Source: Cyclobacteriaceae bacterium (lineage in GTDB: Bacteria > Bacteroidota > Bacteroidia > Cytophagales > Cyclobacteriaceae). From it: a DNA stretch of 64,000 nucleotides. Position numbers and translations under genes: made by a program. Positions 4,583 to 24,927 of this stretch are shown in pieces. The DNA is taken from NCBI GenBank assembly GCA_016787605.1, contig JAEUUE010000096.1, positions 1 through 64,000 on the forward strand, in the 5' to 3' direction. Position 1 is the first letter of the stretch. Every line of letters begins with the position of its first letter. A model generated the notes under the pieces. It was not told where the DNA came from, made no database searches, and saw nothing but the letters and a program-made list of their open reading frames with translations.

Positions 4583-4596
4583 TTGTTTCTCTCCAT

Positions 4597-5430
4597 CTAA
4601 TGCTCAACCATTGTGGCCACTCTGGTCACGGCGCTGGCCTGAAAGAAACCCAGGGCACCGTTCGATAGATTGGATGGAGGATTGGAGGGCGGCGAATCAA
4701 ACATGCCACCGGAGCCGGTCGTCAGTTTGGCAAGACCCTCATAGTATTGGAAGGCCTCGCGGCTCAGGCTGAGACACTCCACCACCGCCCTATCATGCGG
4801 GCGGAAATTGACTGGCGCGGGCACCCCCTGAATCTTCTCGCTGAGGGTTTGATCGTCCACGGTAAAGGCACCGCGGCGTGGTTCATAAACCAGCGTGTCG
4901 TTTCGATATACGTTTATCAGGTAATAGTCCTTCGTGGTGCCCGGCTCCTTCCCAAACACCAGGACCTGGAAAGTACGACCCTTCTTCATATCACGCTCAC
5001 TGGGTCGGGGATCCGCGGCTGGGACAAGGGAATCCAGTTCCATGGCTGGCGACATGCGGTCAACGGCGGAATACACGTGTTCGTCAACCCGGACCGTAAG
5101 AGTGTACGATCGTCCAATTGACCCGGTGAATGGCGACTGAGGCACATAGTACCCGATGCTGTCGGGGTAGTTGCGGGGATTATGGACAAATGGAACAACC
5201 TGACCAAGGTCGTCGGTAACGGTTACCTGGGCATGAGACACCCTGGGCGTCGGGCCGCTTTCATAAAAACTGGCGCTCCTGGTAAGTCGTACGTATTGAC
5301 GTCCGACCTGATTGGTCACCAGGCCCTCGATGACGACCTTGGTGGGTGTTTGGCGAATGTCCAGTTCAACGGTCTCTTCGCAGGCAAAGAGGATGGCCGA
5401 GGCCAGGAGGAAGGTGGCAATCGTTTTCAT
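4597..5430 (-). CDS. DUF4249 lipoprotein, partner of TonB receptor
   Basis: 277 residues. A lipoprotein signal ends at C17 (AILFAC). The mature part opens with EETVELDI and the conserved beta pattern KVVIEGLVTNQVG of DUF4249 proteins, periplasmic or outer-membrane lipoproteins encoded next to TonB-dependent receptors in Bacteroidota. Its ATG overlaps the TGA of the upstream receptor by one base (TGATG), so the two are translationally coupled. It probably caps or assists the receptor in taking up an unknown ligand, in the manner of SusD, although it is unrelated in sequence. No substrate hint is visible. Confidence 0.88.
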   Translation of the reverse strand: MKTIATFLLASAILFACEETVELDIRQTPTKVVIEGLVTNQVGRQYVRLTRSASFYESGPTPRVSHAQVTVTDDLGQVVPFVHNPRNYPDSIGYYVPQSPFTGSIGRSYTLTVRVDEHVYSAVDRMSPAMELDSLVPAADPRPSERDMKKGRTFQVLVFGKEPGTTKDYYLINVYRNDTLVYEPRRGAFTVDDQTLSEKIQGVPAPVNFRPHDRAVVECLSLSREAFQYYEGLAKLTTGSGGMFDSPPSNPPSNLSNGALGFFQASAVTRVATMVEH

Positions 5431-7838: not shown

Positions 7839-7978
7839 CAGGTTTACTTAACTATTTGATTTTCTTATATTTATTACCTATTCATGCCCAAGGAATCACT
7901 GCTTTGTACCGGTTAACGGGAGAAGAAAAGACGGGATGTCCTTTGGCCTGAAATGTCCGATGATTGACTCTTCCAGCC

Positions 7979-8983
7979 ATGAACAGCGAACAAACCATTG
8001 CCTTTCTGTTGCTCCCGCGTGTCCACTTGATGGACCTCAGCGGGGCCGCCCAGGTCTTTTATGAAGCTTCACGACTCGGCACCAGGCAATACCAATTGGT
8101 TTTTACAGCAGCAGAAAGTCAGGTTTTGTCTGAGCAAGGCCTGCAACTCTCCAACCTCATCACCTTAGACCAACTCCGGCTGAAGAAGGGGGATCTCCTC
8201 CTGGTGCCGGGAATTGACTCCCAGGCGTTCATGGAAGGAAAACTGGAAGAAGCCATCCATCGCGTGAAACCGTGGTTGAAGGCATTCTACGACCTTGGAG
8301 TATTCCTGGGAAGCATTTGTTCGGGAGCACTAATACTCGCCAGGGCGGGGATGCTCGATGGACGCAAGTGCACCACACACTGGAAGAACATCGAGTACAT
8401 GCGGGAGCAGTTCCCCGACGTCACCGTGCTGGAGGACAAACTTTTCGTTTATGATCAACGGATATTCACCAGTGCAGGCATGTCATCAGGAATTGATATG
8501 TCGCTGTCCATACTCGAAGAACAGCAAGGCCCTGTCGTAACGGCCAAGGTGGCCCGTGAAATGGTCGTTTACCTGAGGCGGAATGACTCCGACCGGCAGC
8601 AGACCATCTACCTCGATTACCGAACGCATTTCAACCCCGCCATCCACAAAGTCCAGGACTATATCATCTCTCACCCCGAAAAGAATCCCACCCTGGAAGA
8701 ACTGGGAAGTGTCGGCAACCTGAGTGTCAGGAACCTGACCCGGCTGTTCAAGAAAGCCACGGGCCATACCATTATCGAGTTCAAGAATTCTGTCAAGGTG
8801 GAGATGGCGCGGTCCTTACTGCACAACAGGAACCTGACACTGGATGCCATTGCTCGGCAGTGCGGGTTTGATAGTGCACGACATTTGAGGAGAATCTGGA
8901 CACAAACCACCGGTACGACTCCGAAAAGCTTTCAGCTGGGTTTGCGCGATAGCCTCCACGACTCGGATAGTGCCGCACGATGA
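7979..8983 (+). CDS. GlxA-family transcriptional regulator (DJ-1/PfpI domain + AraC HTH)
   Basis: 334 residues from the ATG at 7979. The N-terminal half is a DJ-1/PfpI-like amidotransferase fold: TIAFLLLPRVHLMDLSGAAQVF and a nucleophile-elbow cysteine C114 in SICSGA. The C-terminal 100 residues are an AraC double helix-turn-helix (LEELGSVGNLSVRNLTRLFKKATG, then LDAIARQCGFDSARHLRRIW). GlxA-type proteins are cytoplasmic activators or repressors that sense small nitrogenous or aldehyde ligands. The gene converges on the metallo-hydrolase at 9039-9935 with 55 bases between and is the nearest regulator to it. Target unknown. Confidence 0.92.
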   Translation: MNSEQTIAFLLLPRVHLMDLSGAAQVFYEASRLGTRQYQLVFTAAESQVLSEQGLQLSNLITLDQLRLKKGDLLLVPGIDSQAFMEGKLEEAIHRVKPWLKAFYDLGVFLGSICSGALILARAGMLDGRKCTTHWKNIEYMREQFPDVTVLEDKLFVYDQRIFTSAGMSSGIDMSLSILEEQQGPVVTAKVAREMVVYLRRNDSDRQQTIYLDYRTHFNPAIHKVQDYIISHPEKNPTLEELGSVGNLSVRNLTRLFKKATGHTIIEFKNSVKVEMARSLLHNRNLTLDAIARQCGFDSARHLRRIWTQTTGTTPKSFQLGLRDSLHDSDSAAR

Positions 8984-9954: not shown

Positions 9955-12174
9955 CTACAAGAGGTCGAACGCTGCCTGACGAACATCCCGGGAATCGCCA
10001 CCCACAAAAACCAGGTATTGGCCAGGCTCTGTGCCGAAACTGCCATCTATCCGGCAAAATTCCAAGTCCTTATACGTAAGGAAAAATGTGACCTCTTTCC
10101 GTTCGCCTGGCTTCAGGCTGACTCGCTGGAATCCCTTCAACTCCATGACCGGTCGGGTCACAGAGCCCACTAAATCACGCACATACAGCTGCACCACCTC
10201 CACTCCCTCGCGGCTTCCGGTATTCGTGAGGTTTACACGAACGGCAAGGGTATCGCCAGCCCGCAAGGACGCCGTACTGAGGACCGGGTCCGAATAGGCA
10301 AACGTGGTATAGGAAAGACCGTAGCCAAAGGGGTAGAGCGGGGAATTGTCAACGTCCAGGTACTTGGACGTGTATTTACTGTTAACGTCAAGGGGCCGCC
10401 CCGTATTCTTCATGCTGTAGTAAATGGGCACCTGGCCCACCGAGCGGGGAAAGGTTACCGGCAACTTGCCCGATGGGTTGTAGTCACCAAAGAGGACATC
10501 GGCAATGGCATGCCCCGCCTGCGTGCCCAGGAACCAGGTCTCCAGGATCGCCGGGACACGCTGTGCCATCGCGTTGATCGTCAAGGGGCGGCCGCTCATC
10601 AGGACCACAACGACAGGTTTGCCCGTCTGCTGGATAAGGTCAACCAGCTGCTGCTGAACACCAGGCAAGTCAAGGGAACTGCGGCTGGCTGCCTCCCCGC
10701 TCAGCGAAGCAGACTCCCCTACGGCAAGGATGATCGCATCAGACTGTCGTGCAATACGCAAGGCCTGTTGAAAATAGGACGTAGAATCGTCGTTGACATT
10801 GCTGCCCTTTGCGTAAAGCACCTTGGTTGCTGGGCTTACCGCCGCGCGGACTCCTTCCAGGAGGGTAACCGACTTTGTCCAGTCGCCCGCTGCCGACCAG
10901 GATCCAATCATCTCGCGACGCGCGTCGGCCAGGGGTCCAATCACGGCCAGCGTGCCCAGGTTTTTTGAAAGCGGCAATACGGACTCATTCTTAAGCAAGA
11001 CGATGGACTTCCTGGCCACCTCACGTGCTTTGTCCAGATATTCAGGCTTCATGATGGTGGTTCTTTCCCGGATGGTATCGCTGTAGCGGTACGGGTCATC
11101 AAAGAGTCCCAGCTCAAACTTTTTGCGAAGGATGCGCCTGACCGATTGGTCGATCAATTCTTTGCTGATCTTGCCGGAAGCAACGAGTTGGGGAAGTGCT
11201 GATTGATAAAACCCGGCTTGCATGTCCATATCCAGCCCGGCCTGCAAGGCGAGGGCAGCGGCTGAAGCGGTGTCGGAAGCCACCCCGTGAGGAATGAGTT
11301 CCATGACCGAGGTATAGTCGCTTACGACAAAACCCTCGAACTTCAACTCGTTGCGCAACACTTCGGTTAATAAGTACTTGCTGGCTGTCGCCGGAACTCC
11401 GTCGTAATCGTTAAACGACGTCATCACCGTTGCGGCGCCAGCGTGGACGGCCGCTGCGTAGGGAGGCAGATAGACTTCCCGAAACATGCGTTCCGACATA
11501 TCGACCGAATGATAATCACGGCCGGCCTGGGCCGCTCCGTAGGCGGCAAAGTGCTTCACGCAGGCCATCACCGAATTCAGCTGACCAAGGCCCTGGCCCT
11601 GGAATCCCCTGACCCGGGCTTCCGCGATGCGTGAGCCCAGGTACGGATCCTCGCCGCTGCCTTCTGCCATTCGGCCCCATCGCGGATCCCTTGCGATGTC
11701 TACCATTGGCGCAAAGGTCCAGTGCAACCCCTCGGCCGCAGCCTCCTCGGCGGCGATCCGGTCAGCCTCTTCAATGGCTTTCAAGTCCCAGCTTGCCGCC
11801 TGTCCCAACGGTATGGGAAAAATCGTCCGGTGACCGTGAACCACATCATACCCGAACAGCAGCGGGATCTTCAGGCGGGTCTCTTCCACGGCAAGGCGCT
11901 GAAGTTCTCGTGTGTAGCGGGCCGTGAATGCGTTGAAGATCGCACCCACACGTCCTTTTCGGATCTCTTCCTTATATCCCTCGCGCATGGTTGGGCCGGT
12001 AACGTCCCAGTCACTGGTGTACAAAGACAATTGCCCGATCTTCTCTTCGAGGGTCATCAGGGCAAGCAGGGAGTCGACTTTCAGATCAATACGATCCTGC
12101 CGGTTGGCCGGGGGATTGCATGCATTGAGAAGAAGGATAAACAGGGCGAGGAACAGGTGTTTCGGCATTGCCAT
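9955..12174 (-). CDS. glycoside hydrolase family 3 beta-glucosidase, lipoprotein
   Basis: 739 residues from the ATG at 12174 (12168 is also possible), nine bases after the stop of the preceding gene. The signal ends in a lipobox (ILLLNAC, C19), giving a membrane-anchored periplasmic or surface enzyme. It has the GH3 barrel (LMTLEEKIGQ, GEDPYLGSRIAEA, KHFAAYGAAQAGRD), the nucleophile D286 in VVSDYTSV, the alpha/beta sandwich with the acid/base region SGEAASRSSLDLPG, and a C-terminal fibronectin-III-like domain. It would release glucose from oligosaccharides. GH3 enzymes paired with GH144-type proteins in Bacteroidota act on beta-1,2-gluco-oligosaccharides, which is the inferred role here. Confidence 0.95.
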   Translation of the reverse strand: MAMPKHLFLALFILLLNACNPPANRQDRIDLKVDSLLALMTLEEKIGQLSLYTSDWDVTGPTMREGYKEEIRKGRVGAIFNAFTARYTRELQRLAVEETRLKIPLLFGYDVVHGHRTIFPIPLGQAASWDLKAIEEADRIAAEEAAAEGLHWTFAPMVDIARDPRWGRMAEGSGEDPYLGSRIAEARVRGFQGQGLGQLNSVMACVKHFAAYGAAQAGRDYHSVDMSERMFREVYLPPYAAAVHAGAATVMTSFNDYDGVPATASKYLLTEVLRNELKFEGFVVSDYTSVMELIPHGVASDTASAAALALQAGLDMDMQAGFYQSALPQLVASGKISKELIDQSVRRILRKKFELGLFDDPYRYSDTIRERTTIMKPEYLDKAREVARKSIVLLKNESVLPLSKNLGTLAVIGPLADARREMIGSWSAAGDWTKSVTLLEGVRAAVSPATKVLYAKGSNVNDDSTSYFQQALRIARQSDAIILAVGESASLSGEAASRSSLDLPGVQQQLVDLIQQTGKPVVVVLMSGRPLTINAMAQRVPAILETWFLGTQAGHAIADVLFGDYNPSGKLPVTFPRSVGQVPIYYSMKNTGRPLDVNSKYTSKYLDVDNSPLYPFGYGLSYTTFAYSDPVLSTASLRAGDTLAVRVNLTNTGSREGVEVVQLYVRDLVGSVTRPVMELKGFQRVSLKPGERKEVTFFLTYKDLEFCRIDGSFGTEPGQYLVFVGGDSRDVRQAAFDLL

Positions 12175-12182
12175 AGCAGTTG

Positions 12183-14162
12183 TCAATTGGTAAACCCAAG
12201 CTTTGTCATCGCGGTTTGCACCTCCGGTGCCGACATGAACAGGTCCCACAGGAGGCCCGACCGGTAGTTTTCCATCATCACAATAATCGGTCCCTGATCA
12301 ATGGCCAGGTAGCTGGTCGCATACCAGTCTTTCCCCGGATTAAAGGCGTCATAAAAACCATAGGGTCCCCATAACCGGTCACCCAGGTTATAGTAGAAGA
12401 ACTTCATCGCCTTCATGGATTCCGTCGGCGAATACGGAAAACTGGACAAGGCGGCGGTGGGCGCTATGACGCCCAAATCATTGGTAGGCGAATGTGCGTT
12501 ATATCCTGATTCATTGTCGCTGGCGGTAAGGCCCCAGCAGGCGTCACTATAGCCAATCTTCGAGGAAGGATTGGTTTCGCAATAGTCGTGATTGATCAGC
12601 GAATGACTCACGTTTTGCGTCCAGTAGTTGGCATACGCATCGCTCAGGTTGCTAGGGTCCAGGCCAAGGAAGGAATAGTGGGCAAAAAACAGGGGGCCAC
12701 CGTAATCACTCCCCACCGGCAAAACATGGCCATAGAAAGTCTTGCCGTTAACCATGCCCCCATTTCGTGCCCAGCCCTGATGGTATACCGATGCATTAAT
12801 GGTATGGGTCGGTGAGCCGGCGGCCAGGAAATAGACAATGAGTCCTTCATTATAACCGCGGATTGGAAAATTCATTTTCCACCCGACAGTGGGTGACCAA
12901 TGCCAGTAGAGCACATTCTCTCCGCCCTTCGTGTACCAATCAAATTCTGTTTCCTGCCACAAAGTGTTGATCTTGGCGATGATGGCATTCTCGGTAGGGT
13001 CAGCGGGATTCAGGAACTGCCGCACGGTAAGGAGTCCTTGCAGCATAAAGGAAGTTTCCACCAGGTCTCCCCCATTGTCGTCGGTGCTGAACGGGACGAC
13101 CTTGCCCGTGTTTCCATTCATCCAATGAGGCCACACGCCATGAAACCGGTCGGCAGTCTGGAGGAACGAGACGATCGTGTTGAGGCGGGCCACTCCCTGC
13201 GACCGGGTGATAAAGCCGCGGTGGATGCCCACCAGAATGGCCATGACGCCGAATCCCGATCCGCCGATGGTTACAATGTCACCCGACGTATTCCGTTCGC
13301 GGGCCAGGCCGCAGTTCGGGTGAGCGAAATCCCAGAAGTATTTGAAGGTTTGTTGTTGAACCAGCGACAGCAGCTCATCGTCGGTGATGACGGGGAAAAC
13401 CGGGTTGGGATCCACGACGGTAAAGAACTCTTTGACAAATTGAGTCAATACCTCCCCCTGCTTTCCTTGGATCAGGTCAGACAGGTAAAGCCGGTGTCTT
13501 TTGAATCCCTTAAGATTTTGGGTGACGGTAATTGTAAGTTTTTGGTCTCCATTGGAAAGCGAAAGGTTAGCGCTTAAGGCCGGAGGTCCCAGTATTTGGA
13601 CCGAAGAAGAGGAGATGGTGGTGGGGTCTACCGGGGCCGAGAATTCGACTTCGATGACAAGCCCGGAAAGGGGCACGTTGACCACATTGGCCGTCAGGGG
13701 TGAAACCACCTGGGTGCCGATTTTCAAATATTGTATCGTGAGGGGAACGGCGAGTGTAGTAAAATCAAAGTTCACCCCTTCAAAGCGCTCTCCGTTCAAA
13801 CCCTTGACGGTGTTGGAGATGACCAACCGGTACGATTGGTTGCTCCCGAGTGGAATGGTCGGAAAGGCGGAAAAAGATTTCAGGTCAGAGGAAAAAACGA
13901 ACAGCAGCGGGACGAGCGTCCCTCCCTGGGTGAGGGTTACTCCCGCCTTTACGGATATAGTGTCCAGGGCCGATGTAAATTCAGCAACCAGGGGCTCACT
14001 TACCGGGATGCCCGTCGTTGATCCGCCGGGAGTCAACACCGTTGAACCGGACTTGACCTCCACTAATTGAAGGGCGCCGACGGGTACAGAGCTTTCGTCC
14101 TGCTTGCAGGATGCAAGCACCAGGACAGCGAGGAGAATGAGAAACTGAAAAGCCCTGAGCAT
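12183..14162 (-). CDS. glucoamylase-like (GH144-type) lipoprotein with Ig-like domains
   Basis: 659 residues from the ATG at 14162; lipobox LVLASC (C19). Two SbsA/Big_5-type Ig-like repeats (about 30-130 and 140-240, each with a VSxPLxxxF-like start) precede a catalytic (alpha/alpha)6-barrel region from about 255 (LVQQQTFKYFWDFAH). Hallmarks are WPHWMNGNTGK, DNGGDLVETSFMLQGLL, RGYNEGLIVYFLAAGSPTH and AIDQGPIIVMMENYRSG, typical of the Pfam 'glycoamylase' family that includes GH144 endo-beta-1,2-glucanases. It is expected at the cell surface or periplasm, cutting glucan for import. It sits between the LamG lipoprotein and GH3 genes, with a hairpin just upstream (14195-14223). Confidence 0.88.
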   Translation of the reverse strand: MLRAFQFLILLAVLVLASCKQDESSVPVGALQLVEVKSGSTVLTPGGSTTGIPVSEPLVAEFTSALDTISVKAGVTLTQGGTLVPLLFVFSSDLKSFSAFPTIPLGSNQSYRLVISNTVKGLNGERFEGVNFDFTTLAVPLTIQYLKIGTQVVSPLTANVVNVPLSGLVIEVEFSAPVDPTTISSSSVQILGPPALSANLSLSNGDQKLTITVTQNLKGFKRHRLYLSDLIQGKQGEVLTQFVKEFFTVVDPNPVFPVITDDELLSLVQQQTFKYFWDFAHPNCGLARERNTSGDIVTIGGSGFGVMAILVGIHRGFITRSQGVARLNTIVSFLQTADRFHGVWPHWMNGNTGKVVPFSTDDNGGDLVETSFMLQGLLTVRQFLNPADPTENAIIAKINTLWQETEFDWYTKGGENVLYWHWSPTVGWKMNFPIRGYNEGLIVYFLAAGSPTHTINASVYHQGWARNGGMVNGKTFYGHVLPVGSDYGGPLFFAHYSFLGLDPSNLSDAYANYWTQNVSHSLINHDYCETNPSSKIGYSDACWGLTASDNESGYNAHSPTNDLGVIAPTAALSSFPYSPTESMKAMKFFYYNLGDRLWGPYGFYDAFNPGKDWYATSYLAIDQGPIIVMMENYRSGLLWDLFMSAPEVQTAMTKLGFTN

Positions 14163-14194
14163 GTTATGATGTGACTGTGAGAGAAAGAGAAGAA

Positions 14195-14223
14195 AAGGGT
14201 TTCCGGATAACCCGGAAACCCTT
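14195..14223 (-). terminator. hairpin between LamG and GH144-type genes
   Basis: A perfect 12-base-pair inverted repeat (AAGGGTTTCCGG ... CCGGAAACCCTT) with a 5-base loop lies 28 bases past the LamG lipoprotein stop. On the minus strand it is followed by a pyrimidine-rich run (TTTCTTCTC). It could be a partial terminator or an mRNA-stabilising end that sets more of the surface-binding proteins than of the enzymes. Confidence 0.65.
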
Positions 14224-14250
14224 ATTCTCAAACTAAACCAAACCGAAGAA

Positions 14251-15528
14251 CTATGGCTTCTCAGCCGTATGCAGTGCAACAATCTCCGCCTCCGTGAGAG
14301 CGACCTTCCAAATCCTCAGGTCGTCCATGAGACCCTTGAAGTGGTTGTTGAGCGGGTCGGAAGGATCCGCCCATGAATCCGTCACGATGCGGTTTCCGCT
14401 GGCCTGGATGAACCCGAGGGCAAGCTTGTTGCCGCCACCCGTGGTGTTTCCGGCATACTTGACGCCAGTGGCTGCGCATTTGCCGGGAGGCGTGCAAGGA
14501 TTCGACCACAAGTCAAAGTCCCACTCGCGGGTCTTCTCACCGTTAACATACATCCGGCCGATCTTGGTCGAGGCCTGGTAGGTGCAAACAACGTGTACCC
14601 ACTTGTCCTTGAAATAGAGATCGATTCCGTTCGGAGCCGGAACATCTTTGGCAAACGTAGATCCTTGCCAGCCGTTAGGTTCGGCATTCCACCAGGTGTC
14701 TTCGGCTTCTGTAAGTCCGCCGGTGACATCGTAGCGGGTAGCCAGCTTGACTCCCTTGTCATCGGCATCCCAGGGGCCGCCCATGATTTCAAACTGGAAG
14801 CCGTACCATGCGGCCAAACCAAGAACGAAGTGGCCTTCCTTGGTACTGTTTGCCTTGATCCAGAAGCTGATGCTGAAGTCAGGACCTACCATGTAATCGT
14901 CACCTTCCGGGATCTCCACGATAGACGTGGTACCATTGAAGTTGGCAGCCAGTCCGGCAAAGCCGAAGCGGTCTTCTACAAAGGTAATGTCCTTAACATC
15001 GGCAGCCGCAGGGGTATGCAGGGCTCCTTTGGCATCGCTCACGTCACCATTGAAGGAGAAGAACGACAGCAAGTGGTCCGGCTGGGGTGCAGTCACCGCA
15101 GGAGGGCCAAATGACTTGAAGGTGAACGTCTCGGCCGAAGCGGAACCGCCATCCGAGGCTTTCAGGCCAGCAGAAATCTTGACCGTGTGGTTCGTGCCAG
15201 TCGCCATGTCTTCCGTCGGGTCAATGGTTATCACGGCGCCGCTGGCCGTGATGGTGGCCGGAACATCTACTCCATTAATCTGGAGGGTAATGTTGGCCGC
15301 GGTGGCCGTTGAAGCGTTTACCGCCTTGTTGAACGTGGCTACGACAGAGGCGCTCAGGGGAACACCGGTAGCCGCCGTGGCCTCATCGAGCGCGATACCG
15401 CCGTCGGTCATCAGGCTCACGATGGTGAGAGCACCCGGGGTATCGTCACTCGAGCAGCTCTCCAGGAACATGCCGGCAGGAACGGCCAGCAGTGCCATCA
15501 GAATCAAATACTTCGCTTTTTTCATCAT
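14251..15528 (-). CDS. LamG-domain surface lipoprotein of the SusCD locus
   Basis: 425 residues. The lipobox is MFLESC (C25) followed by SSDD, an acidic motif like the export signal of surface lipoproteins in Bacteroidota. A Big_5/SbsA-type Ig-like domain (about 35-135, with PLSASVVATFNKAVN) precedes a concanavalin A-like LamG/Laminin_G_3 domain (about 155-420: LSFFSFNGDVSDAKG, FSISFWIKAN, HVVCTYQASTKIGRMYVNG, GLMDDLRIWKVALTEAEI). Directly downstream of SusD, it occupies the place of SusE/SusF-type glycan-binding proteins, and a role in holding the polysaccharide at the cell surface is inferred. No catalytic residues recognised. Confidence 0.85.
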   Translation of the reverse strand: MMKKAKYLILMALLAVPAGMFLESCSSDDTPGALTIVSLMTDGGIALDEATAATGVPLSASVVATFNKAVNASTATAANITLQINGVDVPATITASGAVITIDPTEDMATGTNHTVKISAGLKASDGGSASAETFTFKSFGPPAVTAPQPDHLLSFFSFNGDVSDAKGALHTPAAADVKDITFVEDRFGFAGLAANFNGTTSIVEIPEGDDYMVGPDFSISFWIKANSTKEGHFVLGLAAWYGFQFEIMGGPWDADDKGVKLATRYDVTGGLTEAEDTWWNAEPNGWQGSTFAKDVPAPNGIDLYFKDKWVHVVCTYQASTKIGRMYVNGEKTREWDFDLWSNPCTPPGKCAATGVKYAGNTTGGGNKLALGFIQASGNRIVTDSWADPSDPLNNHFKGLMDDLRIWKVALTEAEIVALHTAEKP

Positions 15529-15578: not shown

Positions 15579-17072
15579 TTAGTTCCAGCCCGGGTTTTGA
15601 GTGATGCGACCCTGTGACAGGTCGATTTGTGTTTGCGGGATGGGAAGCAGTTTGTACTTATCGGTATAACCCAGGGGTCCCAGTACGGCCAAGGCCTTGT
15701 TGGTACGCACCAGGTCCCAGAAGCGATGCCCCTCCATCGCCAGCTCATGCCGTCGCTCTTCGAGGATGATATCACGCAACAGGTCCTTGTTCGTTTCGGT
15801 AATGTTGGGCAACGTACCCCCGGGGGCTCCTGCCCTGGCCCTGGCCCGAACAGCATTCAGGTGAGTGTGGGCATCGGCAGGTTTATTGTTTTCATTGAGC
15901 GCTTCCGCCGCCATCAGCAATACATCGGCATAGCGCATCAAGCGGCGGTGATGGCCCCACTGCGACGGCACGTTGTCGCCGGGCGTCCACACCTTCTGAT
16001 TATAGCATTCTATTTCAATGATCACGGAGTTGAGATACGTGGTATCCGGGCACGTCAGGTCACCCTGGGTAGTGATCCCGTCAAGCACCTCCCCGAGGAA
16101 GATGATGGTCTTGTCCATACGGGGATCGTTGGCATCAAACGAGTTGATGAGGTCGGGTGATGGACGGTTGAAACCCCAACCACGGTTGGGAAAGCCCCGG
16201 ATGCCCTGGGTATTGCCAAACTGCGCACCCCCGTTCTCGGTGCCATCGCTGGGGCGGGCTCCTACTTCAAAAATCGACTCTGTTCCAAAATGTCCCAATA
16301 CGCCTGTTGCGTTGGTGAAGTCTGCCTCCAGGTTGTACTGCAGGGAGTTGATCACTTCCAGGGCATACTTCTCGGCATTGACGAAGTCGGGAACCGGATA
16401 GAACAGGTAGGCTTTGGCGAGATACGCCCTTGCCGCGCCCTTGGTAGCGCGTCCCACGTCATTGCCGGCATAGGCGTTGGCTTCCGGCAAATTATCCTTG
16501 GCAAAAAGGAGGTCAGGAAGAATGATGTTGTCGTATACCTCTTGAAGGGTGGAGCGGCCCAGGTCCAGCGGGGGTTCGGGTGAGGTGACCAGGGGAACTC
16601 CGCCCCAGGCGCGGACAAGATCAAAATAATAGAGGGCTCTCAGAAAACGAGCTTCGGCAATGCACCGGTTCTTCAGGCCGGCATCCATGGCGATATCGGG
16701 AACATAAGTGATCACGATGTTGGCGGCTTTGATGCCCTGGTAAAGGGCCGCCCACCAGCGGTCGAGCCCATCCTGCTGGTTGTTGATGGTGAAGTTGTCG
16801 TAGGCGCCCACCGTGGAGAATTGGTCGCCGGGGCTGCTCCCCTTGCGAGCATCATCCGACATAATGTCGAGGATGGGATAACCGCCTGAATTGAAATACC
16901 AATTGCGGAGCGAGGCGTAAGCGGCATTGGTTGCGGCGACCGCATCGGCTTCGGTAACGGGAAACGAGGTCTGGAGCAACTGGCCCTGGGGCTTCAGATC
17001 AAGAAAATCCTGGCAGCCGGCAGCCAATACCAGTATCATTATCAGCCACCCGCGATTAATGTGCTTCTTCAT
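15579..17072 (-). CDS. SusD/RagB-family nutrient-binding lipoprotein
   Basis: 497 residues from the ATG at 17072; ATG 17090 and GTG 17099 are in frame and would lengthen the signal region. The lipobox is LAAGC (C20), followed by QDFLDLKPQGQLL, the usual SusD N-terminus. The SusD-like domain (AVAATNAAYASLRNWYFN) and RagB/SusD C-terminal domain (LMRYADVLLMAAEALNENN; AHTHLNAVRARA; EERRHELAMEGHRFWDLVR) are complete. SusD proteins lie as lids on SusC barrels and hand oligosaccharides to them. The gene follows susC directly and is followed by the LamG protein. Confidence 0.96.
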   Translation of the reverse strand: MKKHINRGWLIMILVLAAGCQDFLDLKPQGQLLQTSFPVTEADAVAATNAAYASLRNWYFNSGGYPILDIMSDDARKGSSPGDQFSTVGAYDNFTINNQQDGLDRWWAALYQGIKAANIVITYVPDIAMDAGLKNRCIAEARFLRALYYFDLVRAWGGVPLVTSPEPPLDLGRSTLQEVYDNIILPDLLFAKDNLPEANAYAGNDVGRATKGAARAYLAKAYLFYPVPDFVNAEKYALEVINSLQYNLEADFTNATGVLGHFGTESIFEVGARPSDGTENGGAQFGNTQGIRGFPNRGWGFNRPSPDLINSFDANDPRMDKTIIFLGEVLDGITTQGDLTCPDTTYLNSVIIEIECYNQKVWTPGDNVPSQWGHHRRLMRYADVLLMAAEALNENNKPADAHTHLNAVRARARAGAPGGTLPNITETNKDLLRDIILEERRHELAMEGHRFWDLVRTNKALAVLGPLGYTDKYKLLPIPQTQIDLSQGRITQNPGWN

Positions 17073-17101
17073 GTCCGGATATACTTTCATAACCGCCACT
17101 T

Positions 17102-20100
17102 CTAAAAAGTAACATTCAATCCAACCGTATAAATCCTCGCCACCGGGTAAGCCCCATTGTCAATATTGTTTGCCAATACATTGGAACTTCCAAAATCCGG
17201 TGAGTATCCTGTGAAGTTGGAGATGGTAAAAAGGTTCGTTCCTCTCAAATACACCTTCACTTGCTTCACGGAAATCTTGCTTGTCCATGCCGAGGGCAGA
17301 GAATATCCCAGCGTCAGGCTGCGCAAACGGAAATAAGACCCATCCTGGATAAAACGATCAGAGATGGAATAATTGTATCCGCCGAAAGTCGGGCGAGGCT
17401 CGTAATACGAGGTTCCGTCGCCGGTCCATCGGTTCATCACGTGCCTCTCGAAATTGTAAGGGTCGGGCCGCACAATCTCCTTGCCGTTGAGAATCTGGTT
17501 GCCGGATTGTCCCTGGAAGTCGGCCAGGAGTTCAATGCCCTTGTACTCCAATTGAAGATTGAAGCCATAGATGAAGGTGGGGATGGGTGATCCGATGTAG
17601 GTACGGTCGGCGGCTGTCAGCTGGCCGTCATTATTCACGTCGACAAACCGCAAGTCGCCCGGCACCACGTTGGCGTCATGCGGGTAGGCGTTGATCTCGG
17701 ATGCATTCTGGAACACCCCGTTGGTACGGAAGCCGTAGAAGGCACCAATCGGGAGGCCGATGGTACTCAGCGTGGCCGGCTGGCCGTTGCCGAGGAAGCC
17801 ACCCACCAGGGTGGAGTCGATTCCCTTGGATCCCCCTACCGCCAGCACTTCGTTGTGGAGGGTGTTCCCCACAAATCCGACCTTATACTTGATTCCCTTG
17901 AATTCATCCTGCCAGGAGACATTGAATTCAAATCCGCGGTTGAGTACGGTGCCGGCATTGACCGTAATGAGTGCACCATTGCCGTTGCCGGCATAACCTT
18001 GCGTTCTCAGGGGAACGAGAATATCCTGGGTTTCTTTGCTGAAGTAGTCGAACTCCGCCGTCAGCCGGTCATTGAGGAAGGCCACTTCCACACCGATATC
18101 GGTCTGATAGGTAGTCTCCCAAACCAGGTTAGGATTGCCGGCTACGTCGAATGTTGTTCCTGATACGAGGTTGCTGCCCGCGCCAAAAACCGGGCTGGTG
18201 TTGCCATTGGAGGTTACGAGCGAATATTGCTTGAGGTAGTCGATCTTTTCATTGCCGATGGAACCCCAGCTGGCCCGCAGTTTCAGGTTGGTCATGACGT
18301 CGACACCCTTCATGAAGTCTTCGTTAATGATATTCCATCCCACGGCAAACGAGGGGAAATTCCCCCACCGGTTATCCGGTGAGAACTTCGACGAGCCGTC
18401 ACGGCGGAAGGAGGCGGTGACCAGGTACTTTTCCTTCCACGTGTAGTTTACGCGGAACAGGTAAGAGACCAGGCTGTAGTACATGTTGGCGTCGACCCCG
18501 TTGTTGATGGCGGAGAGATTATTGACGATCGGATTGGTGGTGGGGTCGTAAAAGTAGAGCGGGTTGTTGAGGTACCGCAGTTCCGGAAAATCGCGGATGA
18601 TATTGCTTCCCCGGATATTGATGAACTCATTCCGCGTGGATTGCATGGTAAACCCTCCAAGTACATTGAGCCGGTGATCGCCAAACTCCTTGGTATAGTT
18701 CAGGGTATTTTCCCACAGGAGCGTTGACGAAGATGAGCTGCCCTTGCTGAGTGAGCTTAGCAGGTTCTGCTGCTGGTTTGGTGTGCCATCAGGATTGAAT
18801 ACGGTGAACGCCGGGGTGAAATCCTCGCTCTTGGAATTGGACAAGTCGACGCCAAAGCTCGACCGGAACAGGAAGTCTTTCAGGAAGGTGACATCCATGA
18901 ACATGTTCCCGACAATCCGAAGGCCGCTGTTGAAGTTATTGGAGTATTCGAGGGAGGCCAGGGGGTTGCCCACGTTGGGCACCGCGCCAAAACTTCCGTC
19001 GGAATAATACGGTTCATGAAGCGGTTGAGCCCGGTAGGCCTGGTAGACCACATCGGGAGCATTCTGCTGACTGTAAGGAGCCAAGGTGATGTTGTTTCCC
19101 AGCTTGATGTTGTCGCTCAGGGCATAGGTATTGTTGAACTTGAGCGTCACGCGCTCAAATTTCGACTTGGGGATAATTCCTTCCTGGTTATAGTAGCCGA
19201 CGCCGACATAGTACTGCGATTTGGCGCCCGATCCTGCCACGGAAACCTGGTAATTCTGCATGGGCGCCGTACGGAAAATGAGCGACTGCCAATCGGTGTT
19301 GGGCAAGGCGTTGAGGTTATTGTAGGTGCCCGGAATGATTTCGTTGGTGATCTGGCCGAATTCCTTGCCATTCAGCAAGTCAATGGTCTTTGCCACTTCC
19401 TGAATGCTGTACTCGGCCAGCACATTGACGGTGGGCTTTTCCTGGCCAGTCTTTCCCAGTTTGGTTGTAACAATGATGACGCCATTGGCACCCCGGGCTC
19501 CGAAGATGGCCGTGGAAGATGCATCCTTCAGTACTTCCATCGACTGGATGTCTCCCGGGTTGAGGAAGGAAATGTCATCCAGGATCACTCCATCGACGAC
19601 ATAGATCGGCGAGGAGTTGTTGAACGTACCTACTCCCCGCACCCGCACTACTGGGCTTGCGCCGGGCGCCCCGGAGGTGTTGTAGACTTGAACCCCTGAT
19701 ACCCGGCCTTGAAGGGACTGAACTGCGTTGAAGGAAGGTATTCTTGTGATTTCGGAAGGTTTGATGGAGGCGATGGAGCCCGTCAGGTCGCTCTTGCTTT
19801 GTACGCCATACCCGACGACCACCACCTCTTGCAAGAGATCGCTGTCCGATTCCAGCGCTACGTCAATCACCGCGCGGTTATCGACCGTAATAGTTTGGGT
19901 GGTAAATCCCACAAACGAAAAAGTCAGGGTATTCTCCCCAGGTGCCAACTCAATCTGGTATTTGCCATCCATGTCGGTGGCTGTGCCCTTGGAAGTGCCG
20001 GGCACCGAGATATTGACGCCAGGCACCCCCTGACCATCTTCCTTGGCTGTTACCGTACCGGACACTACCCTGTTTTGGGCCAATGCAGCCATGGAACCAA

Positions 20101-20134
20101 GGCATAAGATGCTAACTACCAATGCTTTAATCAT
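17102..20134 (-). CDS. SusC/RagA-family TonB-linked outer membrane transporter
   Basis: 1010 residues, typical of SusC. A signal peptide ends near AALAQ (20); the carboxypeptidase-regulatory-like domain follows (SGTVTAKEDGQGVPGVNI), then the VVVGYG TonB-box-like stretch, the plug (VVRVRGVGTFNNSSPIYVVDGV; NPGDIQSMEVLKDASSTAIFGARGANGVI) and the barrel ending in an aromatic residue (GLNVTF). It imports oligosaccharides with SusD as lid. It is the first gene of the susC-susD-LamG-GH144-GH3 run. The 231 bases upstream separate it from the membrane receptor gene on the same strand and should contain its promoter. Confidence 0.97.
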   Translation of the reverse strand: MIKALVVSILCLGSMAALAQNRVVSGTVTAKEDGQGVPGVNISVPGTSKGTATDMDGKYQIELAPGENTLTFSFVGFTTQTITVDNRAVIDVALESDSDLLQEVVVVGYGVQSKSDLTGSIASIKPSEITRIPSFNAVQSLQGRVSGVQVYNTSGAPGASPVVRVRGVGTFNNSSPIYVVDGVILDDISFLNPGDIQSMEVLKDASSTAIFGARGANGVIIVTTKLGKTGQEKPTVNVLAEYSIQEVAKTIDLLNGKEFGQITNEIIPGTYNNLNALPNTDWQSLIFRTAPMQNYQVSVAGSGAKSQYYVGVGYYNQEGIIPKSKFERVTLKFNNTYALSDNIKLGNNITLAPYSQQNAPDVVYQAYRAQPLHEPYYSDGSFGAVPNVGNPLASLEYSNNFNSGLRIVGNMFMDVTFLKDFLFRSSFGVDLSNSKSEDFTPAFTVFNPDGTPNQQQNLLSSLSKGSSSSSTLLWENTLNYTKEFGDHRLNVLGGFTMQSTRNEFINIRGSNIIRDFPELRYLNNPLYFYDPTTNPIVNNLSAINNGVDANMYYSLVSYLFRVNYTWKEKYLVTASFRRDGSSKFSPDNRWGNFPSFAVGWNIINEDFMKGVDVMTNLKLRASWGSIGNEKIDYLKQYSLVTSNGNTSPVFGAGSNLVSGTTFDVAGNPNLVWETTYQTDIGVEVAFLNDRLTAEFDYFSKETQDILVPLRTQGYAGNGNGALITVNAGTVLNRGFEFNVSWQDEFKGIKYKVGFVGNTLHNEVLAVGGSKGIDSTLVGGFLGNGQPATLSTIGLPIGAFYGFRTNGVFQNASEINAYPHDANVVPGDLRFVDVNNDGQLTAADRTYIGSPIPTFIYGFNLQLEYKGIELLADFQGQSGNQILNGKEIVRPDPYNFERHVMNRWTGDGTSYYEPRPTFGGYNYSISDRFIQDGSYFRLRSLTLGYSLPSAWTSKISVKQVKVYLRGTNLFTISNFTGYSPDFGSSNVLANNIDNGAYPVARIYTVGLNVTF

Positions 20135-20365
20135 AACGCGGCCAATACTTCGGTCAATGATTTTCGTGGTTTTGCGAAATGAAGTTATGGCAATATCAAG
20201 CCGCGAGTAATTTTTTTTGCTGAAATCGTCGATTAAGCAAAGAAAATATGGCCAACGGGGGGATTAGAAATTAACGGAAGAAAAACATCGATTTCAAACG
20301 TATGCTGGGCACAAATGGCGAAAACGTCTGTTCCGCTTTGCGCATCAAAAACATGAAGAGGTAGG
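20135..20365 (-). other. leader and probable promoter region of susC
   Basis: 231 bases without a credible gene, between the end of the zinc-ribbon receptor gene and susC. On the minus strand it holds a TATTTTCTTTGC stretch (around 20240) and an A/T tract (near 20210), but no full TTG-N17-21-TAnnTTTG promoter that I would assign. It is the obvious place to look for an operator. Confidence 0.35.
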
Positions 20366-22306
20366 CTACCTCCTCAGGCGCCCCAGGGAACTCCGGATGA
20401 GACCCTTTACCCGGCTTCGGATGCCGGCCCTGGTTTCTGCACTGGCAATCAGGATGACATCTTCCCAATTGGCCGCTGTGGGACGGTTGCCCTTGAGTTC
20501 CAGCTCACCGATCCTCTCCGCAATCCTCTTCCGGAAGCCCCAAACGGTGTTCATTCGCAGGTCGAGAGTGTGTGCCAGCTCCTCGATCGTGACTTTCTTT
20601 CTCGCCGCAACGGCCACATAGGCGATGTAAAAGGCCTTTTCAATAGGAAACTTAATGCCATGAAATACCGTGTAGCTGGTGATGGACTCATTGTACCCGC
20701 ATCGGGTGCAGCGTCGTCCGAATTTCTGTGCGCCTTCAAAGTACTTCTCATTGGCGCAGCGGCGACACTGGTATCCCTTCGACCATTTCAGTGTCTCGAG
20801 GAACCGGTAGCACGCCAGGGCATCCGCGTAGATGGTCTTGAACTCCGAGTACTCCATCACTTTCTCATGAAGCCGCTCCTCCAGGACCTCCTTCACCTTG
20901 TTCTTGAGCTTCCAGTTGTCCAAATCCAGGAGGGAATTGATCTGGTTGATTTCCCTTGACTGGACCGTCAACTTCTCATTGCTTTCTTCCAACTCCCGGT
21001 TCTTCCGGTCCAACTCAAGGGTACGCTCCCTCACCTTCTCCTCCAGTTCCCGGTTGACCTTGTCCTTGAGCTGCATGTTCAGTTCGTGCTGCTGGATAAT
21101 CCGCTTCAGCGCCCTGTCACGGTTGTTCTTGAGAATCCGGATGCGGTCACCCAGCGCAAACGTGAGGAACAACATCTCCACGACAAAACTCAGGTGCAGG
21201 CTGTAATGCGACAGGATGGTGATCGACAGAATGTTGAAGTACACCAGGCTGCGCAGGAGGAAACCCGACAGGAGCAGTCCATAGGCGATCACAAAGAACC
21301 GGGCAGGCCGATACCCCCTCATCCAGATTTTAACCCCGGTATAAAAGATCAAGCCCAGGGGCAGGATCTCCACCATTCGGTATTCAAAGAACTCCGGGAA
21401 GTACAGGAACTCCACCAGGAAGACCACGGTGCGGAGGATAATCATCCCCACCAGCAGGCGATCCAGATGGGGAGACTTGGCCTTGGTGCTGAGAAAGCGA
21501 CGGGTAAAAACGAGCGCCCACAAAATAACGGAGTACAGGGATATCCCCACCGCATAATCGTTCCAGTCCGGGTGGTCCGGCCATAAGTACTGAAAGGCGA
21601 TGCCATCGAGGCTCATCGCGTAGAGGGCTACGCTGAGGATATAGAGGATGTAGTAGAGATTCTTGATTTCACGGATCGCCAGGTACACCAGGAAGTTGTA
21701 CAGGGCGATGATCAGGATCATTCCGTAGAAGGTGCCATACAGGAAATACTCATTCAACGCATAGTTGATGAACCGCCGGTCGGATCGGAAGGCGATCCGG
21801 ATGTCGGCAAAAGCATGCGAGCGCACCTTGAAGTAGTAGACCAGGGTAGTGTCCTTCCGCATCGTCAACGGCACCTCGAAGTTCTTGTGCTGTATGTTCC
21901 GCTGCGTGAACGGAAAATGATCACCCATGATCCACCGGCTGTAGCCGCCCCTCTCCGATGGCAGGTAGGCCTCAATTTGGTCAATGGTCTGATCGTAAAA
22001 TTCCAGGAGCCAAACCTGTTCCTGTGTCTGGATGTGGTGAATGGGAATGCGGATCCAATACCAGGTATCCACCTGGAAATCCTTGTTCTGATAGTCGGGG
22101 TTCTTCCGGAACCTCTGCTGAACCTGCGGCAGCAATACCGATTCGAATTCGATCAACCCCTCCGGGTCGGTGAAGTGATCCAGTTCCCGCATGTACAGGA
22201 TGCGTTCTTCACCTGCGGGAAGTTCGAAACCCTGGCCGTCAGCCGGAGCGACCGGGACCACCAGGGTGAGAACCAGGACCACCCATCCGGAAATTCGACG
22301 AATCAT
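20366..22306 (-). CDS. 7TM-DISM membrane receptor fused to a transposase-like zinc ribbon and HTH
   Basis: 646 residues. A signal peptide (1-24) is followed by a periplasmic 7TMR-DISMED2-like beta-sandwich (about 35-175; TWYWIRIPIHH, VWLLEFYDQTIDQIEAYL), seven hydrophobic segments of the 7TMR-DISM type (about 185-390), a long charged coiled coil (about 395-490), a zinc ribbon with C514, C517, C533 and C536, and then SITSYTVFHGIKFP plus an HTH-like segment (TIEELAHTLDLRMNTVWGFRKRI). The last 130 residues match the N-terminal zinc ribbon and HTH of IS1595/ISXO2 transposases, but no DDE domain follows. DISM receptors sense carbohydrates or small ligands; here the output is most simply DNA binding. 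The gene starts 7 bases after the second GH144-like gene and lies upstream of susC. Confidence 0.87.
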   Translation of the reverse strand: MIRRISGWVVLVLTLVVPVAPADGQGFELPAGEERILYMRELDHFTDPEGLIEFESVLLPQVQQRFRKNPDYQNKDFQVDTWYWIRIPIHHIQTQEQVWLLEFYDQTIDQIEAYLPSERGGYSRWIMGDHFPFTQRNIQHKNFEVPLTMRKDTTLVYYFKVRSHAFADIRIAFRSDRRFINYALNEYFLYGTFYGMILIIALYNFLVYLAIREIKNLYYILYILSVALYAMSLDGIAFQYLWPDHPDWNDYAVGISLYSVILWALVFTRRFLSTKAKSPHLDRLLVGMIILRTVVFLVEFLYFPEFFEYRMVEILPLGLIFYTGVKIWMRGYRPARFFVIAYGLLLSGFLLRSLVYFNILSITILSHYSLHLSFVVEMLFLTFALGDRIRILKNNRDRALKRIIQQHELNMQLKDKVNRELEEKVRERTLELDRKNRELEESNEKLTVQSREINQINSLLDLDNWKLKNKVKEVLEERLHEKVMEYSEFKTIYADALACYRFLETLKWSKGYQCRRCANEKYFEGAQKFGRRCTRCGYNESITSYTVFHGIKFPIEKAFYIAYVAVAARKKVTIEELAHTLDLRMNTVWGFRKRIAERIGELELKGNRPTAANWEDVILIASAETRAGIRSRVKGLIRSSLGRLRR

Positions 22307-22313
22307 CGGCTTG

Positions 22314-23681
22314 TCAACGTGTTAACCATCCCCCGCTGAACCCCGCTTTGCGCAGGCCTTCCACAATGTAGGGGTTCTTCTTCATGATTTCCCAAACCAG
22401 CCCCGTGCGGTAGTTCTCCAGCTGCATCAGGATGGGACCCTGGTCGATACCCAGGTAATCCGGATCGAACCATCCCCTGGACCCGTCGGCATACACCACC
22501 GAAGGGTTGAAGGCATCTTTGAAACCGTACGTTGAATACAACTTGTCTCCGTACCGCTTCGACATCTCCTCCAGGGCCGGCAGGCATACTTCGGGTGCGA
22601 ATGGAATCGATCCTCCCGCCGCGGTTGGGGCAATGGTGCCGTCATCCTGGATGTAGCCGCGAGCAGCGCCCCGGGCACTGTAGCCCATGAATGAGATGTT
22701 GGGGTCCGCATTACCTTGATTACCAGGGCCATCGCACGCCGTCAGGCCCCAGATGAGTTCGCTGTAGTCACTCCAACCGCCCGGATTGTAAATACAGTAT
22801 TGCCGGTTGGCGAGCGTGGCACGGCGGGAGTTCTCGAAATAGTCGATTCCCCGGCCTTTCATGTAGTCGTCCTGGATGCCGCGAAAATCAATGTACATAT
22901 GAGAGTACTGGTGGCCGAATAGCGGACCGAAATTGACGTGGGGCTGACCTTGCCACGTTGACCACTGGTAGGTTTTTGTCCAGGCCTCCCACGCTCCCTT
23001 ATCCAGGGGATGGGTGGGTGAACCCAACGCGAGGACATACAAAATCATCGCCTCGTTGTAGCCTCGCCAGGTGGAAGCCAGGAATCCGCTTTCGGGATGC
23101 CAGCCCATGCTCATGGTTGATCCCCCGTTCATCGCCCAATCCCATTCCACCTGCCGGTAAAGCGAGTCGGCCGCCTGGCGGATTTGAACCTCGACATCAC
23201 TGGTTCCATCAAAGTAGGATTGACTGGAAAGCACACCCGCCATGAGCAACCCGGTGTCGATCGTGGAAAGTTCGACCCGTTGAAACCGCATGCCGGTCTT
23301 CATATCCAGGAAGTGATAAAAGAAGCCGCGATGACCAGTGACTCCAGACTCCTGCTCGCCCTGCGGCGCCTTGAGGAAGAATCGTAGCGTGGTCAATGTC
23401 CTTGACGCAGCAGCCTCGCGGCTTATGTACCCTCGCTCCACTCCGATGAGGTAGGATGTCAATCCGAATCCGGTGGCGGCAATGCTGGAGAAGCTCGGCG
23501 TTGGCCACCGATCCGGTACGAGTCCGTTGTCAGGGTTGGTAAGCTCCCAAAAGAATCCAAAGGTTTTCTTCGACAAGGAGTCCTGAAAGGCAACATTTTC
23601 CGTTGTGCGTGAGTTTCCGGTTTGGCAACTCATCAGAGCAGAAAACCCACCCAGAATAACAAAGGCAGTTAGAAATCGCAT
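22314..23681 (-). CDS. second glucoamylase-like (GH144-type) lipoprotein
   Basis: 455 residues with lipobox SALMSC (C19) and no Ig-like domains. The (alpha/alpha)6-barrel region begins at DSLSKKTFGFFWELTNPDNGL and carries ELSTIDTGLLMAGVL, RGYNEAMILYVLALGSPTH and GIDQGPILMQLENYRTG, sharing the RGYNE, GSPTH and IDQGPI landmarks with the protein at 12183-14162 but differing in the WPHW/DNGGDLVET region. It is probably an endo-acting beta-1,2-glucanase or relative. Its stop is 7 bases from the ATG of the zinc-ribbon receptor, so enzyme and receptor are very likely cotranscribed. 48 bases separate it from the site-2 protease gene upstream. Confidence 0.88.
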   Translation of the reverse strand: MRFLTAFVILGGFSALMSCQTGNSRTTENVAFQDSLSKKTFGFFWELTNPDNGLVPDRWPTPSFSSIAATGFGLTSYLIGVERGYISREAAASRTLTTLRFFLKAPQGEQESGVTGHRGFFYHFLDMKTGMRFQRVELSTIDTGLLMAGVLSSQSYFDGTSDVEVQIRQAADSLYRQVEWDWAMNGGSTMSMGWHPESGFLASTWRGYNEAMILYVLALGSPTHPLDKGAWEAWTKTYQWSTWQGQPHVNFGPLFGHQYSHMYIDFRGIQDDYMKGRGIDYFENSRRATLANRQYCIYNPGGWSDYSELIWGLTACDGPGNQGNADPNISFMGYSARGAARGYIQDDGTIAPTAAGGSIPFAPEVCLPALEEMSKRYGDKLYSTYGFKDAFNPSVVYADGSRGWFDPDYLGIDQGPILMQLENYRTGLVWEIMKKNPYIVEGLRKAGFSGGWLTR

Positions 23682-23729: not shown

Positions 23730-24812
23730 TTACCTGAGATGCTGTCTCGCCCGCTGAATCAGGACAAATTCCACCAGGTTGTCATTGTCTACCATCCCCA
23801 CTACGGCCTCTCCCTCCTTCACCAGCGCAATGGATTTCCCGGACGACTGCATCTTGATGATTGCCTCATTGACCGGCAGGCCGGACGGCAGGTAGAGGAT
23901 ATCTGTTTGCATGCAGTCGCGGACCGTCAGCTGATCTCCTTTGTCGCCCAGGGCCTTGATGACATCCATCTGGGAGATCACCCCGAGCACGAGCGAATCG
24001 TCGGCCACCACGAAGTTCTTTTTCTGGGTGTTGAGGATCTCCCGGATCATTTCTCCCACGGTGGTCTCGGGCTTTACCACCGGCATTTCATGCATGGTCA
24101 GGTCCATCACCGTGTGCCCCTCCATCAGCGCTTCTGTCGACGCGTAATTGGCTTCCGCCTGGGCGCCCAGGATGATGAACAATCCGATGAAGACCAGGAA
24201 GGGGTTCACGTAGAACCCGAGGAAAATGAATATCACCGCGATCACCTGTCCAAAGGTCGCCGCCACACGAGTGGCTTGCGGGCGGTCCATCCAAAACGAA
24301 AGGATGGCGCGAAACACCCTGCCGCCGTCCATGGGAAAAGCCGGCACCAGGTTGAATAGGGCGAGCCAGGCGTTGACTACGGCAAAGGCAAAGAGGAAGG
24401 TGTTCGGACCAATCTGGATCTCCGCCTCCTGGCTGGTCAGCTGGGGAACCGGCGCCAGCGGCAGCAGGAGCCCGGCGATAACCAGGTTCACCAAGGGGCC
24501 GGCCAGGGCGACCACCAGTTCCTCCTTCGGCTTACGCGGTATCGACTCCAGCCGGGCCACTCCCCCGATCGGGTAAAGCGTAATGTCGCGGGTGCGGATG
24601 CCATACTGCCGGGCGGCAAAGGCGTGGCCCAGTTCATGGAGTACAACGCAGACGAAGATGGACCCCACAAAAAGAAGCGTCCAGAGGATCGGGCCGGCGG
24701 ATGCGCCCTCGCGGAGGTTTTGCACAACGATCCAGACAATGAGCAGCAGGAAGGTCCAGTGGATGGAGACCTTGATGCCCGAAACGTTGCCCAGGGAAAG
24801 CGCGCTTTTCAT
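23730..24812 (-). CDS. site-2 protease family (M50) membrane protease with CBS domains
   Basis: 360 residues from the ATG at 24812; a TATCTTTC box at 24829-24836 lies inside the longer frame and argues against starts further upstream. The zinc motif HELGH (59-63) lies in the second hydrophobic segment and the partner FPMDGGR is in a later one, as in M50 intramembrane metalloproteases that release membrane-bound regulators. Two CBS domains (about 230-350: MHEMPVVKPETTVGEMI; ISQMDVIKAL; GMVDNDNLVEF) suggest control by adenosine nucleotides. Substrate unknown. Same strand as the glucan locus but probably a separate unit. Confidence 0.93.
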   Translation of the reverse strand: MKSALSLGNVSGIKVSIHWTFLLLIVWIVVQNLREGASAGPILWTLLFVGSIFVCVVLHELGHAFAARQYGIRTRDITLYPIGGVARLESIPRKPKEELVVALAGPLVNLVIAGLLLPLAPVPQLTSQEAEIQIGPNTFLFAFAVVNAWLALFNLVPAFPMDGGRVFRAILSFWMDRPQATRVAATFGQVIAVIFIFLGFYVNPFLVFIGLFIILGAQAEANYASTEALMEGHTVMDLTMHEMPVVKPETTVGEMIREILNTQKKNFVVADDSLVLGVISQMDVIKALGDKGDQLTVRDCMQTDILYLPSGLPVNEAIIKMQSSGKSIALVKEGEAVVGMVDNDNLVEFVLIQRARQHLR

Positions 24813-24927
24813 CGTGAGTTTGTCAAAGGAAAGATAACGGCTGAACTTCCACGAATTCCTGACAACCGTCATTTAAGGTAGCGGTGAGTTTCTGATCTTT
24901 GCAGGGCTTTCAACGCTCAACTAGTCT

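Follow-up and report, generated by a model that had tools for sequence, protein, structure and literature searches.

A membrane receptor with a transposase-derived C-terminal part is a probable one-component regulator of a SusC-SusD-hydrolase locus in Cyclobacteriaceae

SusR, the starch regulator of Bacteroides, is described as a one-component regulator located in the membrane. Its predicted sites are direct repeats with a centre-to-centre distance of 67 or 77 bp, 'six or seven helix turns', and, in the part of the source available to us, its DNA-binding end is said to have no significant similarity to that of other known regulators (PMC3878776). The same part of that source names SusR, hybrid two-component systems (HTCS) and extracytoplasmic function (ECF) sigma/anti-sigma factors as the regulator types of polysaccharide utilization loci (PULs) (PMC3878776). 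A second comparison is offered by the ChiS domain, a cryptic helix-turn-helix (HTH) domain from proteobacterial genomes which, according to the accessible part of its description, occurs C-terminally on 7TMR-DISM proteins, so that a DNA-binding domain at the end of a DISM receptor is not without parallel (PMC8092284). Here we analyse a stretch of 64,000 nucleotides from a Cyclobacteriaceae bacterium (assembly GCA_016787605.1, contig JAEUUE010000096.1, positions 1 to 64,000; hereafter the window), in which a DISM receptor gene precedes a SusC-SusD-hydrolase locus and encodes a C-terminal tail akin to the N-terminal part of IS1595-family transposases. The combination of a sensor carrying a transposase tail with a conserved sugar locus and paired promoter repeats suggests that the transposase part has been reused for control, and we consider it likely that the receptor, tethered to the membrane, regulates transcription of the adjacent locus as a one-component system.

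Sensor and transposase-derived parts of the receptor

The receptor gene (Table 1) had been placed at the right coordinates by the original prediction, which was made from the letters of the window, and its frame is open, without a stop, in its own genome. Pfam identified DISMED2 (E 3e-25, 89.2 bits, curated cut-off 22) and DISM_7TM (E 2.9e-48, 165 bits, curated cut-off 29), by which the protein combines the two features of a 7TMR-DISM receptor, a seven-transmembrane (7TM) domain over its cut-off and a periplasmic DISMED domain. An AlphaFold model of the whole receptor (mean predicted local distance difference test score, pLDDT, 86.3) places seven long helices across the Pfam 7TM region, the last of which spans residues 364-479 and is followed by the zinc-ribbon strands and the HTH, and the C-terminal part modelled alone reached a pLDDT of 89.0. 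The domain order that had been predicted, DISMED2, seven helices, coiled coil and zinc ribbon-HTH, is thus borne out by Pfam and the model. Structural matches over the HTH part were mostly DNA-binding HTH proteins with a modest Z, and a sequence search of solved structures with the whole receptor as query returned 0 matches at E<=1.

The predicted kinship of the zinc ribbon and HTH with IS1595 transposase N-termini is agreed upon by Pfam, NCBIfam and hhalign, and the tail, when tested against the transposase zinc ribbon, matched it. Zn_ribbon_IS1595 (PF12760) scored 22.7 bits (E 9.8e-5) in the whole receptor and 25.2 bits with the C-terminal part alone, both under the curated cut-off of 25.4; homologues fall on either side of this value (over it L051, 41.6, L054, 31.1, and L058, 28.2 bits; under it L052, 22.3, L055, 19.3, and L059, 22.8 bits), and 55 of 57 family C-terminal parts match the profile at E<=0.01. 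Residues 552-600 correspond to positions 3-52 of the 215 of the NCBIfam profile transpos_IS1595 (E 2.2e-4), with a score of 21.2 bits that is far below the model's full-length cut-off of 75. In a single hhalign comparison the tail aligned with IS1595 transposases over about 119 columns (99.9%, E 9e-33), and 99.5% was reached with distant IS1595 transposases only. As these transposases were found with the tail as query, their Pfam identity serves as an independent check, and the DDE domain is above its cut-off in L060, L061, L063, L064 and L080. The receptor ends at about the point where the transposases run on into their catalytic motif (VDExxxGG in L080). The catalytic DDE domain (PF12762), rightly predicted to be absent, has no Pfam match in the receptor, and none is listed for the 57 C-terminal parts.

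In a tree of 85 rows, thinned from 111 with L083 left out and built on a short alignment of 128 columns, 64 receptors and two non-DISM proteins stand apart from 19 transposases, with L078 and L080 as the transposase-type rows nearest to the receptors. This split has a bootstrap value of 96 and a Shimodaira-Hasegawa-like approximate likelihood ratio (SH-aLRT) of 46, and is present in 94% of 200 bootstrap trees; with such mixed support, the tree is in moderate agreement with a single capture of the transposase part.

Several relatives of the two halves of the receptor were seen alongside. An own-genome paralogue of the sensor part (L065, G000:C38:6971-8962) carries an adenylate/guanylate cyclase domain at its end. 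In L153 two genes, one for a DISM histidine kinase and the other for a DISM receptor with zinc ribbon-HTH, are arranged head-to-head (4383-6353 (-) and 6549-8396 (+)), with a GH3 gene beside them, and L173 holds a tandem pair of DISM receptors with a transposase-type tail (3683-5554 and 5544-7511, 11 bp overlap). Genome G218, a class-level relative, has ten tail matches on IS1595-like proteins; the zinc ribbon-HTH is kept and the usual VDExxxGG is absent in all eight proteins read (L078, L187-L189, L191-L194), and the DDE domain of L187 scores 21.8 bits, under the cut-off of 27. These proteins may form a second, soluble domesticated family.

A conserved locus with paired promoter boxes

Matches to the tail were found in 27 of 58 relative genomes (own included) and, at E<=1e-8, in 54 of 392 genomes of the phylum, where frames of more than 600 amino acids occur in 12 genomes (same family, order or class) and the rest measure at most 368. 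Counts of named loci refer to the 80 best-scoring ones, which share ancestry and are therefore not independent. The DISM part is present in 78 of these 80, from several genera, the other two being L142, cut by a contig end, and L166, with a different N-terminal part. Cultured species in which the locus occurs include Chryseolinea serpens (L111) and Ohtaekwangia koreensis (L101). Among the 76 loci for which 600 bp or more of downstream sequence are available, 62 have a SusC-type gene that starts in the same orientation no further than 600 bp from the receptor, with gaps of 132-533 bp; the 62 include L098, whose nearest 'SusC' is a weak 64-bit match. The expectation that homologues lie beside PULs hence holds for most of those examined, and the neighbourhood survey did not place the family away from them. 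In the 14 other loci, susC is 1.7 kb off (L101), a hydrolase lies between (L169, L175), susC is on the opposite strand (L170) or, in ten, no SusC-type gene was seen in the stretch examined. Within the genus, 20 of 36 genomes (own included) have the receptor; each of the 20 same-genus receptor loci read (two being paralogues) is followed by susC in the same orientation, and the locus hydrolase is found in 20/20 genomes with the receptor versus 3/16 without, seven of the latter 16 being under 90% complete. Only 16 of the 80 named loci have, as the window does, a PF10091-type hydrolase directly upstream on the strand of the receptor.

The gap between the receptor gene and susC holds two direct copies of a TGTTTTTnnnnCGnnAAA box, which fall inside 20135-20365, the region that had been singled out beforehand for a DNA-binding assay. 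A de novo search of 64 gaps, consisting of the window and 63 loci (among them L098, L100, with Ns, and L121, 599 bp downstream), yielded a 22-bp box with the consensus TCAATGTTTTTtatgcGtAAAA and a score of 1248.7 compared to 601-628 in five shuffled sets; 40 motif starts were used in the real run and 15 in each shuffled set. The best and second-best box matches are 64-66 bp apart in 47 of the 64 gaps. Comparing each gap with itself, free of any motif, put 64-66 bp among the best direct-repeat spacings in 34 of 63, where 2.7 are expected if spacings were uniform. Moreover, TAnnTT, which we take to resemble the -7 element of Bacteroidota, has a distance to box 2 of exactly 104 bp in 21 of 58 loci; none of the other offsets is found more than five times.

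With fixed thresholds the pair was recovered in the gaps of 41 of 63 loci and in the window, and six pairs were found elsewhere in the 2.26 Mb of scanned strand. Because the profile was trained on the same gaps, it is the spacing, and how rarely the pair turns up elsewhere, that carries information in this result. On inspection, the pairs in L101, L127, L136 (forward) and L141 belong to regulatory DNA between receptor and susC or downstream of the receptor, and that in L098 is probably ahead of a susC beyond the contig end; one pair in L136 has no explanation. Genes intervene between receptor and susC in L101, where the pair sits just before susC, and the same small gene precedes the pair in L098, at which the contig ends. 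The simple pattern TGTTTTTn(56-60)TGTTTTT has the window pair as its sole occurrence in the own 4-Mb genome (control 0); as a general marker it was rejected, since among AT-rich relatives it is unspecific and turns up in 56 of 58 genomes, with similar control counts. A palindromic box was likewise rejected, as no conserved columns come directly after AAA, which leaves an asymmetric direct repeat. On the question whether transposon ends are still recognised by the tail, terminal inverted repeats sought around IS1595-type copies gave a few weak candidates, none of them box-like by eye. CGTTTGAAATCGA, at window positions 20288-20300 (-), immediately precedes box 2 and extends into it; it is found again in many gaps and, in our view, resembles a LacI-type half site.

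In the window the gene order is PF10091 hydrolase, receptor, susC, susD, laminin-G protein, PF10091 hydrolase and GH3 (Table 1). The PF10091 hydrolases, labelled 'putative glucoamylase' in Pfam, are presumably of the GH144 type with specificity for beta-1,2-glucan.

Table 1. Features of the receptor gene, its promoter region and the surrounding PUL (window coordinates; residues for parts of the protein)
Feature	Position	Strand	Basis or remark
Receptor gene, 646 aa	20366..22306	(-)	Open reading frame, Pfam/NCBIfam, AlphaFold model
Signal peptide-like helix
DISMED2	residues 40-168
DISM 7TM	residues 185-387
Coiled coil	to residue ~479
Transposase-derived DNA-binding part (predicted), Zn ribbon and HTH, residues ~486-646	20369..20851	(-)	Pfam/NCBIfam, hhalign
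Zn ribbon (C514 C517 C533 C536)	residues 497-537
HTH	residues ~552-604
Low-confidence tail	residues 623-646
Box 1 of paired direct repeat, TTCATGTTTTTGATGCGCAAAG	20336..20357	(-)	De novo motif
Box 2, TCGATGTTTTTCTTCCGTTAAT	20270..20291	(-)	66 bp downstream of box 1, ACGTTTGAAA before it
-7-like element, CATAACTTCATTT	20177..20189	(-)	TAnnTT offset count
Second PF10091 hydrolase	22314..23681	(-)	7 bp upstream of receptor, possibly cotranscribed
SusC-type TonB-dependent transporter, presumed target	17102..20134	(-)	Pfam
SusD-type glycan-binding lipoprotein	15579..17099	(-)	Pfam
Big_5 and laminin-G-like protein of PUL	14251..15528	(-)	Pfam
PF10091 hydrolase of PUL	12183..14282	(-)	Pfam
GH3-type enzyme, presumed PUL end	9955..12249	(-)

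Proposed control of susC and its alternatives

In the mechanism that we propose, a glycan fragment, probably a beta-glucan oligosaccharide, would be bound by the periplasmic DISMED2 domain, and the signal would pass through the seven membrane helices into the long, presumably dimerising coiled coil. This coiled coil would place two tails in the cytoplasm, each consisting of a zinc ribbon and HTH from the N-terminus of an IS1595-family transposase without the catalytic domain. The two tails may then grip the two boxes, which face the same direction and, at 64-66 bp or about six helical turns, presumably the same side of the helix, upstream of the susC promoter, and the box-bound tails would activate, rather than repress, that promoter. 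Several observations weigh against this proposal. The gaps of 22 of the 63 loci miss the pair thresholds, no such pair was found near receptors without a SusC neighbour or in L169, L170 and L175, and near the paralogues L053 and L056 no clear pair was seen. Receptors without the pair have either different sites or a different role.

The absence of the pair beside receptors lacking a SusC neighbour also fits an alternative in which a different regulator, for instance of the AraC or LacI type, binds the boxes and the receptor acts indirectly or on other genes. It would draw further on CGTTTGAAAT before box 2, which to our eye looks like a LacI-type half site, and on a DJ-1/PfpI and AraC-type regulator gene at 7964-8983 (+), near the PUL end and about 11 kb from the receptor gene, whose product is a possible second regulator. 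However, a Pfam scan of 16 window genes found no LacI-type domain, and the pair is absent from three equivalent SusC-SusD-hydrolase loci (L177, L178, L179) in genomes without a tail match, as well as from a fragmentary fourth receptor-less locus (L180) of which some 250 bp before susC are available. Within the genus, GTTTGAAATCRATGTTTTT, with at most one mismatch, is present in 11 of 20 receptor-bearing genomes, always in the receptor-susC gap, compared to 0 of 16 without the receptor, 13 of which also lack the locus hydrolase; matches elsewhere occur in three genomes of other genera. Binding of the boxes by another regulator is unlikely in our judgement.

Less probable still is that the tail lacks specific DNA binding and serves as a protein-protein signalling module or persists as a degenerate remnant. 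Zinc ribbons can, as we understand, make protein contacts, and the fold search gave no match at E<=0.001. Conversely, Cys514, Cys517, Cys533 and Cys536 are invariant in 56 of 56 aligned receptors, the C-terminal part is conserved like the whole protein (mean column identity of 53% in 57 sequences versus 49% in 56), and the tail gene lies beside conserved paired promoter boxes. The same module, moreover, occurs on another N-terminal part in L166 (6198-7109), a 303-residue protein with a hydrophobic N-terminal part and no DISM match, and as a stand-alone 151-residue protein in L079 (1197-1649 (-)); given these two proteins, it may be a general output domain. An assembly or gene-fusion artefact, in which an IS1595 element would have broken into the receptor gene of a single genome, can be dismissed, for IS1595 transposases are indeed present in related genomes but the fusion is conserved throughout the named loci and genera given above and its frame is open in the own genome. 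The neighbouring M50 protease (23730-24872) was considered as an agent of regulated proteolysis and likewise rejected, a homologue being found in 0 of 33 other loci surveyed.

Comparison with known regulators

Control of the locus by the receptor itself would make this a clear bacterial case in which a membrane sensor has taken over the predicted DNA-binding part of a transposase as its output, and one that comes with a candidate operator. Compared to IS1595/ISXO2-type transposases (PF12760 and PF12762), the receptor shares the zinc ribbon and HTH; it differs in having no catalytic DDE domain and in the fusion to a membrane sensor. Compared to enzyme-output 7TMR-DISM proteins, such as the cyclase L065 and the histidine kinase neighbour in L153, it has the same DISMED2 and 7TM parts, whereas its output is a presumed DNA-binding module and no enzyme. 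The novelty lies in three points: the module stems from a transposase, it is conserved together with one type of locus, and a candidate operator accompanies it. Among the literature matches listed, which comprise titles and the beginnings of abstracts and leave subscription papers mostly outside, no fusion of a DISM receptor with a transposase zinc ribbon was found. As a one-gene system, the receptor is a potential glycan-responsive switch.

ChiS, the protein after which the ChiS domain is called, is linked to chitin. Proteins with a ChiS domain resemble the receptor in joining DISM to a C-terminal DNA-binding domain, predicted in our case, but the part of the ChiS-domain description available mentions no zinc ribbon or transposase origin (PMC8092284). 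The suggestion of the original prediction that the receptor may belong to a new class of PUL regulators accordingly stands for the transposase origin of the output, whereas a DISM receptor with a DNA-binding end has, as far as that description goes, a precedent (PMC8092284). If our reading is true, the receptor adds a type of PUL regulator to SusR, HTCS and ECF sigma/anti-sigma factors, the types named in the accessible part of the source (PMC3878776).

The likeness to SusR, taken from the available part of its description, extends to a membrane sensor with a cytoplasmic DNA-binding end (here predicted), to the probable control of a sus locus and to direct repeats that lie far from each other ahead of susC, with spacings of 67 or 77 bp for SusR and of 64-66 bp in 47 of 64 gaps here (PMC3878776). 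The difference lies in the DNA-binding end, which by that same description sets SusR apart and is apparently unlike the tail of the receptor, and the similar spacing in spite of apparently different DNA-binding ends suggests convergence (PMC3878776). On balance, we lean towards a single capture of a transposase end-recognition module in Cytophagales-type Bacteroidota that gave rise to a separate class of one-component PUL regulators, convergent with SusR on a pair of direct sites separated by about six helical turns. Dimeric regulators that are held at the membrane may share such an arrangement as a general layout, and the similar long spacing in SusR and here provides a testable rule, namely that membrane-held dimeric regulators may need widely spaced sites.
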